A stretch of DNA of 64,000 bases. Source: Archaeoglobus sp. GTDB lineage: Archaea; Halobacteriota; Archaeoglobi; Archaeoglobales; Archaeoglobaceae. A program made the translations under genes and the position numbers. The notes beneath the pieces were generated by a model. That model was not told where the DNA came from. It saw only the letters and a program-made list of their open reading frames with translations, and made no database searches. Each line of letters opens with the position of its first letter. Position 1 is the first letter of the stretch. The stretch spans positions 1-64,000 of the forward strand of contig JACDNU010000008.1 in the NCBI GenBank assembly GCA_017656505.1. Reading direction: 5' to 3'. This document shows positions 16,112-38,166 of the stretch, piece after piece.

Positions 16112-18265
16112 ATGAAAGCATGGCTATTTGCGTTAGTCGGACTCATGCTTTTAACGCTAGCTGGAGATGTTCTGGCCATCTCCTTCCATGAAAATGCTGG
16201 AAACTTCTCCGATTCTGGACCAAAAACGTCAGATCTTCTATTCGAGGTTGAACTCACAGGACTAATCGACGCCTCGCCTGTTGTTGACGATGACATTGTT
16301 TATGTAGAAAACTGGTACGGATGGGGTGATTGGAAACCTGGATTTTATGCATTAAATGCCCTAACTGGAGATGTAGTTTGGGTTAACAACCAGCTCAACG
16401 GTTCATCAACAGCTGCGATAACTTATGATAGGATTTTTGTAGGCTCATTAGACGGATACTTGAATTGCTTGAACAAAACGAATGGTGAGATAATCTGGAG
16501 AAAGAAAATCGAAAGCGACCCCCAGTGGTGGGGAGTTGCATCCTCTCCTTTGATTTACAACTCAACCGTTTACGTTGTCACGTTTTCAGATGGAACTCTG
16601 CACGCCTTCGATTTCGATGGGAACGAAAAGTGGAACTTCTCTACGGGTGAAGCTCCGCACTACACATCTCCAGCAGTTTATGAGGGCAAAATTTACTTTG
16701 TTGGTAAAAAAGGAAACGAGATGGGAGTTTACTGTCTGAACGAGAGCGGTGGATTGATATGGAGTTCTGAAGTGGAAGAAACCGACAGTAGCCCGTCAGT
16801 TGCCGACGGAATAGTCGCCATCCCAACGAAGACAAAGCTGGTTATCCTTAACGCAACCTATGGTAATGTATTGTGGGGCGCTCCGGTTGAAGGTACAATG
16901 TCTTCAGCTACGATAGCGAATGGAAAGATCTTTATTGGAACCGAAAATGGATATCTTTATTGCTTCGGCGAAGATGGCTCTTTTAAGTGGGCTTTTAAGG
17001 CAAATGGTAAAATCGATTCCTCTCCAGCATACGCTGATGGAGTTGTTTATTTCGCGACAAACGTTCAGAAAGGAACTATATACGCGTTAAACGCTTCAAA
17101 CGGAGATTTGGTGTGGAGTTACTCTCTGAATCCACCATCCGGCCTTTACTACAACATCATGTCATCTCCTTACATTTACGATGGAAGACTTTACATCGGA
17201 GCAGATGATGGAAAGCTGAGGTGTTTTGCAAAGCAAATTCTATGGGAAGGAGAGGTTAGACTTTTCCCTGGCAATAGAACGCTAAACATTGTTGGAAAGC
17301 CTTCAATAGATAACTTCACCGCTTTGTCAGCCTTGGTTGAAGCTTCTGAAGGTAATTTCAATGTAAGCATATTAAACACCGAATGGGGGTTGTTTGTAAA
17401 CAGCATTGCCGATATTCAGCCAGCTAACAATTACTACTGGTTTTATGTCGTAAACGGGGAGATGCCTTCTGTTGGAGCTGCAGACTACATGGTTGAAGAA
17501 AACGACACGGTTGAATTCTTTTTCGCCCCTTGGGGTGTGAGTCATGAGAAAGCGAGGTATAGGGTAATAATGCATGTCAATTTAACGAATGTGCTTTACA
17601 AAGTGAATGTAGGTTTAAAGCCTGGTGTGTTTACAATAGGAAATCACTCGATAGGAAATTTAACCGCATTGGGAGCCCTCCAAGCAGCAAGCAAGATTGC
17701 TGGTTTTGATTACACGGTTAACGATGCCTATTATGATTCTTTCGGCTTACTTGTCGACTCGATTGCGGGAATTCAAAATCAGGGATACAGCGGATGGATG
17801 TTCGCAGTAAACAACATTACACCCATGGTTTCGGCCGACAAGTATGATGTCAAAGATGGGGATGTGGTATGGTGGTATTACGCAACATCTATGAATGATA
17901 CACCTAAAACGGCCCCCTATGTTATAGAGATCGTCGTTACCGCTCCAGATGCCTTTGTGAGCAACTTTAAAGTTACTAATGCTTCCAGGGGTGGAAATGC
18001 AACAGCCTACGTGAACGTTACTGCCGTAGCTTCTGGATGGTATGTAGTTGTGGTTAGCGGTCTGAACGCCGAAGGAGATTACATAGCTGGCACAGGAACC
18101 TTGAGACTTGAACAGTCTGAAAGTGTAGAAGTTCCCGTATTAATTCCAGTCCCCACCCAAGTGTCTACAGGAAGCTACAATCTCTACGCAGGGATTTACA
18201 AGCTCTCAGCTTATCCGAATTCTTTGATAGCCTACAAAGGTCCTGTAAGCTGTGAGGTTAACTGA
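16112..18265 (+). CDS. Secreted beta-propeller protein with two DUF4430 domains
   Basis: A 717-residue exported protein. Residues 1-23 are a signal peptide. Residues 45-375 form a PQQ-type beta-propeller with repeated units such as YALNALTGDVVW, HAFDFDGNEKW and YALNASNGDLVW. Two DUF4430 domains follow (about residues 390-475 and 505-595), with GLFVNSIADIQ and GLLVDSIAGIQ, each with a WxxxVN strand. The end (about residues 605-717) resembles a CARDB-like beta sandwich. DUF4430 is the C-terminal fold of transcobalamin and intrinsic factor. The next gene starts 25 nt downstream and shares that domain. There is no clear C-terminal anchor, so it may be held by partners. Confidence 0.85.
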   Translation: MKAWLFALVGLMLLTLAGDVLAISFHENAGNFSDSGPKTSDLLFEVELTGLIDASPVVDDDIVYVENWYGWGDWKPGFYALNALTGDVVWVNNQLNGSSTAAITYDRIFVGSLDGYLNCLNKTNGEIIWRKKIESDPQWWGVASSPLIYNSTVYVVTFSDGTLHAFDFDGNEKWNFSTGEAPHYTSPAVYEGKIYFVGKKGNEMGVYCLNESGGLIWSSEVEETDSSPSVADGIVAIPTKTKLVILNATYGNVLWGAPVEGTMSSATIANGKIFIGTENGYLYCFGEDGSFKWAFKANGKIDSSPAYADGVVYFATNVQKGTIYALNASNGDLVWSYSLNPPSGLYYNIMSSPYIYDGRLYIGADDGKLRCFAKQILWEGEVRLFPGNRTLNIVGKPSIDNFTALSALVEASEGNFNVSILNTEWGLFVNSIADIQPANNYYWFYVVNGEMPSVGAADYMVEENDTVEFFFAPWGVSHEKARYRVIMHVNLTNVLYKVNVGLKPGVFTIGNHSIGNLTALGALQAASKIAGFDYTVNDAYYDSFGLLVDSIAGIQNQGYSGWMFAVNNITPMVSADKYDVKDGDVVWWYYATSMNDTPKTAPYVIEIVVTAPDAFVSNFKVTNASRGGNATAYVNVTAVASGWYVVVVSGLNAEGDYIAGTGTLRLEQSESVEVPVLIPVPTQVSTGSYNLYAGIYKLSAYPNSLIAYKGPVSCEVN

Positions 18266-18290
18266 GAAGGGAACTGAGAGGTGAAGTGAC

Positions 18291-20198
18291 GTGCAGGCTA
18301 GACTTTCAGTCTTCATTTTATCCCTCACCCTTTTTTTCTTGATTTTGATTAGCTCAGCCGTAGCTTTGAATGTCAGTGTAACGCAAGAAGGTGACAGGCT
18401 TAAAATAATTTCAGACGAGCCCGCTTTCATGGCTATAAAAGTGAACTACGGGGTTCCGATTTTCGCTAACGGAACTAAGATTTATTTTAAGCCGGGAGTA
18501 AAGGGTAAGGTCCAGATCTTTGCAACCTCCGGAGGCCAAGAAGTTGTCGAAGAGGTGGAGTTTACACCGCCAACATCCACACCAAAGCAGATGCCAACGA
18601 TCCACTACTGGTGGAGCGGGGCAGTAAGGCTACCCTTCGGTTACTTCATAAAAGAATCGGAGCAGGGGGACAAGTATAAAATCGAGTGGAGAACGGCCCT
18701 CGGAGCGTTGGAGGTGGCATCAAGGAAGGGGGGTTTCGATTACGTAATAAAAACCACCGATTGGGGACCCTTTGTTAAATGCATTGCGGGAAAATGTGAG
18801 AAGAGCGAGGGAGCCTTTTCAGGCTGGATGTACCAGGTTAACGGCGAAACTCCATCTGTAGGAGCACGTGAATATGCGGTTAAAGAGTACGATGAAGTCG
18901 TTTGGTTTTTCGCAAAGAACATGGACACGACTCCAGAGACCTCTTCAAAGGTCATCAGAATTTTCGTCTTCTATAACAACACGGTGGTTGAGGAAGGCCT
19001 GAATGAAACCGTAAACGAGACTCAAACTAACGTAACAAATCAGACTTTTAATCGGACATTTCCGCTCTCTTTCAACGATCCAAGGATTGTGAAGGCTTTG
19101 AGATACCTTAAAACTCTCCAGAAGGAGGACGGTGGTTTTGCGAATCCTGGGGAGGAACCGAGCACTTCTAAAACTTCTTGGGCGATAATGGCGATGGTTG
19201 CTGCAAAACAAAACCCCGAATGGTGGAAGAGGGGCAATTTTTCTGCTATGGATTATTTGGAGAAGGAGATCCCAGAGGAAGTCAACAAGATGGGAACGGC
19301 CGACTTTGCTAGAACTATTCTCGCTCTGTACGCTGCAGACAAAGATCCTCGAAGTTTTGCCGGAATTGACTTGGTGGAACTTCTAAAATCCAGGGTGAAG
19401 GAAAGTGGGCAGATAGGTGATTTCACCTATACCACCATCTGGGGGCTCATGGCCTTAAAAGTTAGCGGAGAAAACGTATCGAAAACTGTTGAATGGTTGA
19501 TAGGCCAGCAGAACGCTGACGGAGGTTTTGGATGGGCTCCGGGACAGCCAAGCGACTACGATGATACTGCTGCCGCCATCCAGGCTTTGGTTGCCGCAAA
19601 CATTAGCTGTGACAGCGAGGTCATCGAGAGGGCATTTGAATATCTCAAAACCGGTCAGAATGAAGATGGGGGTTTCAGGTACTTTGGAAACTCATCAAGC
19701 AATGCCGCCAGCGATTCCTGGATAATTCAAGCTATCGTTGCCTGCAACGGTAATCCGGAAAAGTGGAAGAAAGGAAACACCAGCGTTGTTGATCATTTGT
19801 TCTCCCTTCAGCGGTCAGACGGATCGTTTAATTATACAACCTACCAGAAATCAAACCCAGGCTACATGACAGCTTCGGCAATTATGGCGTTATTAGGAAA
19901 GCCATTCCCCATAAAGCCCACAGAATACATATCTCTGAATGAAAGCTTAGCTGAGAACGCTATTCCAACTCTTACACCGACCCCTACTCCGACTTCTACT
20001 CCGACTCCAATTCCAACAATCGCTACCGCTAAAACTCCAACCCCGAAGCCCGCTTCACCGACTTTAACACCCACTGCAAAACCAACAGCATCCTCCTCGA
20101 TTACCCAAAATCCTCAAAATCCAGAAATACCGGGATTTGACCTGATGCTTGGATTCCTCAGCGTGGTTTTAGCGATAATCCTAAGGAGGAAGTTATGA
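18291..20198 (+). CDS. Surface protein with DUF4430, alpha-toroid repeats and PGF-CTERM-like end
   Basis: A 635-residue surface protein. A signal peptide (about residues 1-25) precedes a small beta domain, then one DUF4430 domain (about residues 105-220) with FVKCIAGKCEKSEGAFSGW and VGAREYAVKEYDEVVWFF. Residues 260-545 carry prenyltransferase/squalene-cyclase-type repeats (LKTLQKEDGGF, LIGQQNADGGF, LKTGQNEDGGF, LFSLQRSDGSF), which fold as an alpha-alpha toroid. A DYDDTA motif in the second repeat recalls the cyclase DxDD motif. A Pro/Thr spacer leads to the end signal PGFD, a hydrophobic helix and RRKL. The start is GTG with a GAGGTGAAGTG site just before. Toroid plus DUF4430 is the domain pair of transcobalamin in reversed order. 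Confidence 0.87.
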   Translation: MQARLSVFILSLTLFFLILISSAVALNVSVTQEGDRLKIISDEPAFMAIKVNYGVPIFANGTKIYFKPGVKGKVQIFATSGGQEVVEEVEFTPPTSTPKQMPTIHYWWSGAVRLPFGYFIKESEQGDKYKIEWRTALGALEVASRKGGFDYVIKTTDWGPFVKCIAGKCEKSEGAFSGWMYQVNGETPSVGAREYAVKEYDEVVWFFAKNMDTTPETSSKVIRIFVFYNNTVVEEGLNETVNETQTNVTNQTFNRTFPLSFNDPRIVKALRYLKTLQKEDGGFANPGEEPSTSKTSWAIMAMVAAKQNPEWWKRGNFSAMDYLEKEIPEEVNKMGTADFARTILALYAADKDPRSFAGIDLVELLKSRVKESGQIGDFTYTTIWGLMALKVSGENVSKTVEWLIGQQNADGGFGWAPGQPSDYDDTAAAIQALVAANISCDSEVIERAFEYLKTGQNEDGGFRYFGNSSSNAASDSWIIQAIVACNGNPEKWKKGNTSVVDHLFSLQRSDGSFNYTTYQKSNPGYMTASAIMALLGKPFPIKPTEYISLNESLAENAIPTLTPTPTPTSTPTPIPTIATAKTPTPKPASPTLTPTAKPTASSSITQNPQNPEIPGFDLMLGFLSVVLAIILRRKL

Positions 20199-21214
20199 GG
20201 AGTAGGACCTTTAGCTTGCTTTTACTTCTCCTTATTTTTTCTCTAACATTCGCCGGATGTTCGGAGAAAAGCGAGAAGGTGGAAGTTAACTCCAAGGTTG
20301 CCTCCCAGAAGGATATTAATTCCTCCGCTTTGAACAATCGGACTCCGAGTCAATCAAACTCCAATATAACTTTTCCAATCACAGTCACAGACGATTTCGG
20401 ATTCAAGGTTGTGATTGAAAAGCAACCGGAAAGAATAGTTTCGCTCGCTCCAAGCAACACCGAGAACCTCTTCGCCTTGGGTCTTGGGGACAGGGTAGTT
20501 GGTGTTACAGACTACTGTAATTATCCTCCAGAAGCAGCGAAAAAGCCAAAGATTGGCGGGTTCACGACTATAAACATCGAAAAGATTCTGAAGCTAAATC
20601 CGGACTTGGTTGTAGCTTCTTATGGCAATGGCGAGCAGAACGTTGAGACAATGAAAAATCTTGGGCTTAGGGTTATCGCCTTCAACCCGAAATCGATCAG
20701 AGACATTGAGCGCGACATCCTGATCTTGGGGGAGATAACTGGGAAGCAAGACAAGGCGGAAGAGATTGTGGACTTCATGGAGAAAAAAGCAAATGAAAGT
20801 AGAAACGAGTTCAAGCGAAAGCCAAGGGTTATGCACATTTTATGGCACGATCCGATATGGGTTAGCGGATCGAATACCTTCATTGACGAATTAATTAAGA
20901 TCGCAGGTGGGGAGAACGTCTTTTCTGACTTAAAAGGCTGGAAGATTGTGAGCAAGGAAGACATCATAAGCAGAAATCCTGATGTAATTCTCGTAAGTTC
21001 CGGCTCGGGAATGGGGGGGAAAGGTAAAAATTACATTTACGAATGGGTCATGCAGCTCGACATCGATGCCGTCAAAAAAGGACACGTTTACATTGTTGAT
21101 GCAGATCTAATTTCTCGCCCCTCCTACAGGGTCGTTTACGCGTTGGAAAATATCTCGAAAATCCTTAAAGAAGTTGTGGGAAGCGAAAAATTGGTAATCG
21201 GGCAATCGAAATGA
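20195..21214 (+). CDS. BtuF-like ABC transporter substrate-binding lipoprotein
   Basis: A 339-residue lipoprotein of the PF01497 periplasmic-binding family (vitamin B12, haem or Fe-siderophore). The signal peptide ends in a FAGC lipobox. The mature part opens with VTDDFGFKVVIEKQPERIVSLAPSNTE, then GVTDYCNYPPEA, GGFTTINIEKILKLNPDLV, and at the second lobe WVSGSNTFIDELIKIAGGEN, all standard for BtuF/FhuD-type proteins. The ATG overlaps the end of the previous gene by four bases (ATGA), so translation is coupled. No permease or ATPase gene follows. The coupling with transcobalamin-like proteins favours cobalamin as ligand, but that is inference. Confidence 0.88.
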   Translation: MRSRTFSLLLLLLIFSLTFAGCSEKSEKVEVNSKVASQKDINSSALNNRTPSQSNSNITFPITVTDDFGFKVVIEKQPERIVSLAPSNTENLFALGLGDRVVGVTDYCNYPPEAAKKPKIGGFTTINIEKILKLNPDLVVASYGNGEQNVETMKNLGLRVIAFNPKSIRDIERDILILGEITGKQDKAEEIVDFMEKKANESRNEFKRKPRVMHILWHDPIWVSGSNTFIDELIKIAGGENVFSDLKGWKIVSKEDIISRNPDVILVSSGSGMGGKGKNYIYEWVMQLDIDAVKKGHVYIVDADLISRPSYRVVYALENISKILKEVVGSEKLVIGQSK

Positions 21215-33405: not shown

Positions 33406-33825
33406 ATGGAGAAAAAGATCAGGGTTCTTGTTGCAAAGCCCGGGTTGGACGGGCATGATCGCGGAGCAAAAGTTGTTGCGAGGGCTTTGAGGGATGCTGG
33501 ATTTGAAGTCATATACACGGGAATACGAAGGTCTCCTTCTGAGATTGCCGAGACTGCTTTGCAGGAAGATGTGGATGTTATTGGCCTCAGCATTTTAAGC
33601 GGTGCTCATCTCGAGTTAACTCCGGCTATAGTAGAAGAGCTTAAAAAGAGGGGTTTGGAGCCAAACAGAGACGTTATCCTGCTCATTGGCGGTATAATTC
33701 CAAAGGATGATGTTGAAAAGCTGCAAAAACTCGGTTTCTCCGGAATATTTGGGCCAGGTACACCTCTCGAAACAATAATCAATTTCATAAAGGAGAGGGC
33801 ATCGAATTTGAGGAAGGGCTCGTAA
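33406..33825 (+). CDS. Methylmalonyl-CoA mutase, B12-binding (small) subunit
   Basis: A 139-residue cobalamin-binding Rossmann domain. The signature is [21 protein letters not shown] (DxHxxG, where His coordinates cobalt, about residues 14-22), then SGAHLELTP and [14 protein letters not shown] with a GTPLET end. It needs the large catalytic subunit, encoded at 36523-38166. The ATG follows GGAGGTGG. It opens a six-gene methylmalonyl-CoA cluster that runs away from the SDR gene. Confidence 0.94.
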
Positions 33826-36522: not shown

Positions 36523-38166
36523 ATGAATAAGAAAGAATGGGAGGAGAAATATCTCGAACCTTTCTTAAAAAAGGCTGGAGAAAGGAAAAAGGAGTTTGTC
36601 ACCATATCAGGCTTTCTCGTTGACAGGGTTTACACTCCCGAGGACATCGATCTCGATTACGAGGCTGAGCTTTCATATCCGGGAGCCTATCCTTTCACTC
36701 GTGGCATATATCCAACGATGTATCGTGGTAGAGTATGGACCATGCGGCAATATGCAGGCTTTGGAACCGCTGAGGAGACGAACAAGAGGTATCGCTATCT
36801 CCTTGAGCAGGGACAAACTGGTTTGAGCGTTGCCTTTGATCTTCCAACCCAGATAGGATACGATTCCGACCATCCAATGGCGATGGGAGAGATTGGGAAG
36901 GTAGGCGTCGCGATAGACACGATCGAGGACATGCAGATCCTCTTCGATGGAATTCCTCTGGATAAGGTCTCAACTTCGATGACTATCAACTCAACTTGCG
37001 CCCAGGTTTTAAGCATGTACATAGCCATAGCAGAAGCTCAGGGAATTTCGAGGGATCAGCTTCGCGGGACGGTGCAGAATGATATGCTTAAAGAGTACAT
37101 AGCAAGGGGCACGTACATCTTCCCGCCAGAGCCTTCTCTCCGCCTCGCAACCGACATAATAATGTTCTGCGCTAAGGAAGTGCCGAGATGGAACTCCATA
37201 TCCATATCTGGCTATCACATGGAGGAGGCTGGAGCTACTCCGGTGCAGGAGGTTGCTTTCACGCTAGCGGATGGAATTACCTACGTTGAGAGGGTGATCG
37301 AACGCGGCATGGATGTGGATGCTTTCGCCCCGAGGTTGAGCTTCTTCTTCGCCGCTGGAAACAATCTCTTTGAGGAGGTTGCCAAGTTCAGGGCTGCGAG
37401 AAGGTTGTGGGCGAAGATTATGAAGGATAGGTTTGGAGCTAAGAATCCTCGCTCTATGATGCTTCGCTTTCACACTCAGACTGCTGGCTGCACGCTCACA
37501 GCTCAACAGCCCGAGAACAATATCGTCCGCGTAACGATTCAGGCTCTGGCTGCCGTGCTGGGAGGAACGCAAAGCCTGCATACGAACAGTTTCGACGAAG
37601 CCTTAAGTCTGCCAACCGAGAAGGCAGTCAGAATAGCTTTGAGGACGCAGCAGATTCTGGCTGAGGAAAGTGGTGTTGCTGATGTGGCAGACCCCTTGGG
37701 AGGGAGCTACTACGTTGAATGGCTCACTGACAGAATTGAAGAGGAGGCAATGAAGTACATCGAAAAGATCGATGAGATGGGAGGGATGGTTAGAGCGATT
37801 GAAGCAGGCTTCCCGCAAAGGGAGATTCAGCGCTCCGCCTACGAAAAGCAGAAGAAAATCGATGAGGGCGAGATGACTGTTGTTGGAGTCAATAAGTATC
37901 AGATCGAAGAGGAAATTGAACTTGAGATCTTGAGGATAGACGAGAATATGGTAAGGAAGCAGATAGAGAGGCTGAAAAAGTTCAAGGAATCGAGGGACAA
38001 AAAGAAAGTTGAGGAGGCTCTTGAAAAGCTTAAAAAGGCTGCAGAAGGCGAAGATAATCTCGTTCCGTATATCTTGGAGTGCATAAAGGCGAGGGCGACC
38101 TTAGGGGAGACTACCGATGTTCTGAGAGAGGTTTTCGGAGAGTATCAGGCACCCCAGATATTTTGA
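36523..38166 (+). CDS. Methylmalonyl-CoA mutase, large catalytic subunit
   Basis: A 547-residue TIM-barrel subunit that rearranges (R)-methylmalonyl-CoA to succinyl-CoA with adenosylcobalamin from the small subunit. Motifs include [46 protein letters not shown], a [10 protein letters not shown] block, [21 protein letters not shown] and the [16 protein letters not shown] end. It begins with an ATG behind GGAGGTGG. The window shows no MeaB-type chaperone. It closes the methylmalonyl-CoA cluster. Confidence 0.95.

Follow-up and report, generated by a model that had tools for sequence, protein, structure and literature searches.

A transcobalamin-like surface operon of Archaeoglobus sp. as a probable extracellular stage of cobamide import

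Results

Analysis of a 64-kb window from Archaeoglobus sp. (64,000 nucleotides of contig JACDNU010000008.1, assembly GCA_017656505.1) showed three genes at 16112-21214 which very likely form the extracellular stage of an importer for cobamides (vitamin B12-type corrinoids), feeding a BtuC/BtuD pair whose genes lie on a different contig (C2) of the genome. The three genes encode a secreted beta-propeller protein (gene 1), a surface-anchored protein with the two folds of the animal B12 carriers (gene 2) and a BtuF-like lipoprotein (gene 3). This B12 function, as put forward in an earlier note on this DNA, was supported by a genome with corrinoid salvage only, by linkage of such operons to BtuC and CbiZ, by protein fusions, and by a riboswitch and a CbrT-like transporter in bacterial relatives, while corrinoid binding and the handover to BtuF are inferred steps.

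Operon and encoded features

The source genome (G000, Archaeoglobaceae) was 2.52 Mb in size and 99.6% complete, and the three-gene unit was also present in its nearest named relatives, Archaeoglobus sp. JdFR-27 and Archaeoglobales archaeon B4_G15. Open reading frames (ORFs) were checked across the window, and the three were co-directional on the + strand (16112-18265, 18291-20198 and 20195-21214), with a gap of 25 nucleotides between genes 1 and 2 and an ATGA overlap between genes 2 and 3, just as the earlier note had described. Its domain assignments were also recovered by Pfam, and all domains exceeded the curated cut-offs: a PQQ_2 propeller and two DUF4430 in gene 1, DUF4430 and a Prenyltrans/SQHop toroid in gene 2, and Peripla_BP_2 in gene 3. 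Only three DUF4430 (PF14478) domains were found genome-wide, all of them in genes 1 and 2 (51-56 bits; cut-off 23.8). Operons of this make-up were seen in many relatives, so the arrangement is not due to chance. A riboswitch search of the window found none, and none is expected in archaea. The features of the operon, with residue ranges and predicted local distance difference test (pLDDT) scores where relevant, were as follows.

16112-18265, + strand: gene 1, secreted BamB-like beta-propeller with two DUF4430 and a C-terminal beta domain (Pfam, AlphaFold, Foldseek)
17318-17521, + strand: first DUF4430 (transcobalamin-like SLBB) of gene 1 (55.8 bits)
17663-17884, + strand: second DUF4430 of gene 1 (51.3 bits)
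18291-20198, + strand: gene 2, secreted, surface-anchored DUF4430 and alpha-toroid protein (Pfam, alignment, AlphaFold, Foldseek)
18720-18911, + strand: DUF4430 of gene 2, containing WGPFVKCIAGKC, which aligns with human transcobalamin-1/haptocorrin (domain search, PDB sequence match)
18780-18797, + strand: Cys164-I-A-G-K-Cys169 of gene 2 (alignments)
19059-19910, + strand: alpha/alpha-toroid of gene 2, residues 257-540, pLDDT mostly >90 (Pfam, AlphaFold, Foldseek)
19554-19571, + strand: DYDDTA of gene 2, the class II terpene cyclase acid motif DXDD(TA), residues 422-427 (alignment)
20130-20195, + strand: PGF-CTERM-like anchor of gene 2, with PGF, hydrophobic helix and RRK (alignment)
20195-21214, + strand: gene 3, BtuF-like lipoprotein predicted to bind corrinoids, with Peripla_BP_2 at 20435-21106 and lipobox Cys22 (Pfam, NCBIfam, PDB matches, alignment)

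Linkage to corrinoid genes in archaea and bacteria

Forty archaeal loci, mutually related, were fetched around strong DUF4430 matches with about 9 kb on either side. Genes in the fetched loci were called from the longest ORFs and home-made profiles, with Pfam and NCBIfam checks on representatives. Toroid plus DUF4430 was present in 39 of the 40 loci, BtuF and the propeller in 38 each, and a FecCD permease in 29. All 29 FecCD-linked loci were among the 39 with toroid and DUF4430, against a mean of 1.4 expected from the FecCD counts of those genomes, and at least one FecCD-linked locus was seen in 16 of 20 genera by our own count. The sole FecCD gene of the single-contig genome G024 was the one in the operon. 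In six loci of Archaeoglobaceae (L058, L061, L066, L069, L070 and L072), CbiZ (PF01955, confirmed for L061) was located between the transporter genes and the propeller gene. L063 carried BtuC, BtuF, DUF4430-toroid and propeller genes, and after these came CbiB, CobS, a nucleotidyltransferase gene resembling CobY, CbiZ and a CobT-like gene, the last called by similarity to an identified L098 protein. Co-occurrence with B12 genes, which the earlier note had proposed as a check, was thus seen in archaea for BtuC/BtuD-like genes, CbiZ, CbiB, CobS and CobY-like genes. The toroid and BtuF formed one polypeptide in 15 of the 40 loci (L075-L089, e.g. L080:10125-12131), in methanogen-type genomes, which suggests that the capture and BtuF steps lie close. 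A toroid-BtuF fusion was also observed in L015 and L020.

The same check gave a positive result in bacteria. In three Firmicutes-like loci (L017, L018 and L024), a cobalamin riboswitch lay upstream of genes for toroid and DUF4430 proteins, EcfT, EcfA and the S component of an energy-coupling factor (ECF) transporter. The S component of L018, the only one tested, had 6FNP as its sole PDB match; this entry is ECF-CbrT, a proven transporter of cobalamin and cobinamide (PMC5997447). Bacterial relatives of gene 2 share their operon with the gene for a CbrT-like S component; the importer itself is non-homologous, and none was present in the window. Because two unrelated importers keep the same surface proteins, and because the bacterial operons carry a B12-sensing riboswitch, a corrinoid is indicated as the common ligand.

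Two other explanations bear on this linkage. The first holds that the ligand is some other large chelate or cofactor (haem, an F430- or F420-like compound, or a siderophore) and that the BtuF/FecCD-type parts are borrowed; it was considered very unlikely. The binding-protein family of gene 3 does match haem and siderophore binders too, and Burroughs et al. 2007 (PMC1796856), in view of the many such archaea that make B12, raised the possibility that the archaeal proteins take up a metabolite of a different kind, and left the ligand open. Against this stand the repeated linkage to the corrinoid-salvage genes CbiZ, CbiB, CobS and CobY-like (haem and siderophore genes being outside the survey), the riboswitch and CbrT link in bacterial relatives, and a source genome in which corrin ring synthesis is missing while corrinoid salvage and a B12-dependent mutase are present.

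The second is that BtuF alone imports B12, while genes 1 and 2 encode surface or adhesion proteins of a general kind and share the operon by chance. Archaeal surface proteins often have propellers, beta domains and PGF-CTERM tails, and DUF4430 proteins without toroid or BtuF sit away from B12 genes (L104 and L105), so that DUF4430 alone does not mean B12. This explanation was nevertheless judged highly improbable, given the 15 loci with fused toroid and BtuF, the presence of toroid/DUF4430 genes beside both BtuCDF and ECF importers, and their position under cobalamin riboswitches in bacteria.

Cobamide requirement and candidate importer

CbiD, the marker of anaerobic corrin synthesis, was found neither in the source genome nor in G244, its sister genome, which is 99% complete. 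The source genome contained only three TP_methylase proteins, two uroporphyrinogen methyltransferases (SUMT) and one diphthine synthase (Dph5), so corrin methylases are absent. The two uroporphyrinogen-III methyltransferases (G000:C15:13045-13716 and G000:C7:62504-63127), found despite the lack of corrin synthesis, presumably serve sirohaem and haem. A nucleotide-loop and salvage cluster on contig C1 contained CobY-like, CobS, CbiB, CobD-like, CbiZ and CobT genes. The window also contained two B12 consumers outside the operon, including the B12-dependent mutase named in the earlier note:

33406-33825, + strand: B12-binding-domain protein, probable mutase small subunit, with the domain at 33421-33762 (domain search)
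36523-38166, + strand: methylmalonyl-CoA mutase catalytic subunit (MM_CoA_mutase)

With no corrin ring synthesis, yet with a salvage cluster, a mutase and a B12-binding-domain protein, the organism most likely cannot make B12 and depends on imported corrinoids.

Three FecCD matches were found in the genome (contigs C2, C14 and C15). The C14 permease had its own binding protein and ATPase alongside, and the C15 match was weak and fell within a metal transporter of a different type. Contig C2 encoded a BtuC/BtuD-like permease and ATPase with no adjoining binding protein, the only unpaired FecCD-type pair in the genome, and it was nearest to NCBIfam BtuC (PRK09535) and to the corrinoid ATPase PRK09536. 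Only two Peripla_BP_2 proteins were present: gene 3 and the one on C14, which has its own permease. In a maximum-likelihood tree, with 97/99 support, the C2 permease fell in a group with operon-linked or CbiZ-linked BtuC of other Archaeoglobaceae, separate from the C14 type. By elimination and phylogeny, the simplest reading is that gene 3 would pair with the C2 BtuCD.

Gene 3 was consistent with the lipoprotein of the BtuF type claimed earlier, as Peripla_BP_2 scored 137 bits against a cut-off of 27.5 and the lipobox cysteine was at position 22. BtuF entries were among its best PDB matches. The aromatic pocket of Escherichia coli BtuF consists of Y50, W66, W85, F162, F168 and W196 (PMC5269720). 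The W66 position is F in gene 3, and the W66F variant of the E. coli protein keeps a high affinity for cobinamide and cobalamin. A cysteine at residue 108 of gene 3, in the motif DYCNYPPE, was conserved in 20 of the 21 BtuF homologues that were aligned; it adjoins the E. coli Y50 position and might contact the corrinoid or its cobalt.

Several results weigh against the operon being part of a B12 importer. Gene 3 scored 141 bits against the NCBIfam BtuF equivalog, whose cut-off is 234, and the C2 BtuC and BtuD were also below their equivalog cut-offs. In the alignment, about four of the six E. coli pocket aromatics were kept (Y107, F/Y123, W222 and W249), with no aromatic at the W85 and F162 positions. 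The BtuCD genes are unlinked to the operon in this genome, and FecCD was missing from the fetched region in 10 of the 39 toroid and DUF4430 loci. DUF4430 repeat proteins of other archaea (L104-L107) had no BtuC nearby and mostly no toroid or BtuF; these probably have a different function. Within the family, CbiD was absent from 9 of 31 genomes with the DUF4430-bearing operon and from 5 of 16 others. No association of the operon with B12 auxotrophy was found within the family, and since 22 of the 31 operon genomes keep CbiD, the operon is no auxotrophy marker and also serves B12 makers.

Surface proteins

Animal transcobalamin and intrinsic factor consist of an alpha-toroid followed by a C-terminal beta domain. 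Gene 2 had these folds in reversed order, DUF4430 first and toroid second, in agreement with the earlier note. Its AlphaFold model (mean pLDDT 79.6) contained a domain resembling a beta-grasp, and an alpha-toroid that was modelled with high confidence. The modelled DUF4430 showed strands at residues 118-122 and 128-132, a helix at 136-147, a hairpin at 151-156/159-165 and then more strands; read from this predicted secondary structure, it appears to be a beta-grasp with a beta-hairpin inserted after the helix. Foldseek matched the model to single- and double-toroid terpene cyclases and prenyltransferases. Both folds named in the earlier note were thus seen in the model, but animal transcobalamin was absent among the 50 matches listed, where toroid matches dominate.

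The DUF4430 domain of gene 2 alone had transcobalamin-1 as its best PDB sequence match (E 0.0011). It aligned WGPFVKCIAGKC with WGPYITCIQGLC of human haptocorrin, with a WGP..CI.G.C stretch in common, and the cysteine pair Cys164/Cys169 was common to haptocorrin and nearly all Archaeoglobaceae homologues. A PDB profile search with the DUF4430 domains also matched transcobalamin-1, together with a spurious collagen IV; the single-sequence alignment and the common motif are therefore suggestive only. The PGF-CTERM-like end proposed for gene 2 was borne out by a PGF motif with GF (G615, F616) invariant in close homologues, a hydrophobic helix, a basic tail, and the matching archaeosortase ArtA (TIGR04125) encoded elsewhere in the genome.

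The toroid could also be an enzyme of the class II terpene cyclase type and not a binder. Single-toroid terpene cyclases were the top Foldseek matches, and DXDDTA was kept in nearly all archaeal toroids inspected (L012-L015 and L054-L089), even when fused to BtuF. Bacterial relatives carry DxDST instead, part of the DXDD(TA) motif may be structural in toroids, and the secretion of gene 2, the fusion with BtuF and the B12 linkage are difficult to reconcile with catalysis. An enzymatic role was considered extremely unlikely.

Gene 1 had an N-terminal signal sequence, a propeller at about residues 39-395, DUF4430 at residues 403-470 and about 511-600, and a C-terminal beta domain. Its structure model (pLDDT 89.6) showed a BamB-like propeller followed by beta domains. 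To our knowledge, archaea have no outer membrane of the kind that bears BtuB. The earlier note had compared the propeller with BtuG, and this analogy was not upheld: both profile and fold matched BamB, whereas BtuG2 of Bacteroides is seven-bladed and partners the outer-membrane BtuB (PMC6143338), so the propeller was rejected as a BtuG homologue. The likeness to BtuG is limited to the presence of a beta-propeller and to the proposed corrinoid capture at the surface upstream of an importer.

Other genes near the operon

A histone-deacetylase-like gene recurred near the operon (L062, L063, L013, L015, L020 and L084), and in L062 (6391-7383) it lay between BtuF and gene 2 on the opposite strand. 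In methanogen-type genomes, a small TIM-barrel (sugar isomerase-like) gene was found at L079:2913-3650 and in ten other loci. In eight loci (L075-L078 and L080-L083, e.g. L082:4891-5982), the toroid-BtuF gene was followed by one for a further secreted, propeller-like protein (about 365 residues), distinct from the first. Methanogen-type loci L015 and L085 had an ECF module (EcfT and EcfA, minus strand) beside the BtuCD-linked operon, and L020 had a possible S component unrecognised by Pfam.

Discussion

In transcobalamin, the beta domain binds B12 first and the toroid then closes over it (PMC11107200). We infer a comparable course for the archaeal system, from corrinoid binding through to a partnership with BtuCD of C2. 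A PGF-CTERM lipid anchor would keep gene 2 on the outside of the cell, where this protein would catch corrinoids with its DUF4430/SLBB domain and toroid and may sandwich them between the two; the secreted gene 1 would also catch corrinoids with its DUF4430/SLBB domains. Both would hand the corrinoid to gene 3, the membrane lipoprotein homologous to BtuF, which would deliver it to the BtuC/BtuD pair on C2. Inside the cell, CbiZ, CbiB, CobD-like, CobS, CobT and CobY-like proteins (contig C1) would remodel it for enzymes such as methylmalonyl-CoA mutase. For archaea in general, it is about as likely as not that a dedicated stage lies ahead of BtuCDF, in which a surface-anchored, transcobalamin-like SLBB and toroid clamp, aided by the propeller and its further SLBB domains, sandwiches cobamides in the manner of animal transcobalamin and docks on BtuF to pass them on directly; in methanogen-type genomes the clamp and BtuF are physically fused.

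The proposed system shares with the classical BtuCDF importer a BtuF-like lipoprotein and BtuC/BtuD-like genes, which are linked in relatives and unlinked in the source genome; it differs by one or two added surface proteins ahead of BtuF and by scores below the BtuF and BtuC equivalog cut-offs. With animal transcobalamin, haptocorrin and intrinsic factor it shares both folds in one secreted protein, with a DUF4430 that aligns to haptocorrin, whereas gene 2 is reversed in order and surface-anchored, and an ATP-binding cassette (ABC) importer is proposed in place of an endocytic receptor.

In outline, the idea of B12 capture by such proteins has been put forward before: Burroughs et al. 2007 (PMC1796856) defined the superfamily and proposed the bacterial toroid/SLBB proteins as B12 scavengers; both domain orders, the propeller fusion and CbiO/CbiQ-like operons in bacteria were already known from that work. 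The archaeal and bacterial proteins have in common a DUF4430/SLBB beta-grasp and alpha-toroid in either order, signal peptides, surface anchors, propeller fusion and operons with import genes. Unlike the bacterial ones, the archaeal operons pair with BtuCDF and not with EcfA/T (CbiO/CbiQ-like), are PGF-CTERM-anchored and carry CbiZ or CbiB. Archaeal clusters of BtuCDF, CbiZ and CbiB are known from studies of B12 salvage (PMC3541065), and no paper uniting transcobalamin-like archaeal proteins with this salvage was found in a search that left most subscription journals outside.

The genome evidence presented here answers the question raised in 2007 on the purpose of the archaeal transcobalamin-like proteins, and it connects the two folds which carry B12 in the blood and stomach of humans with the importer of the classical BtuCDF type. 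The toroid-BtuF fusion gives a testable model of handover, and the findings help to predict which archaea rely on B12 from other makers.

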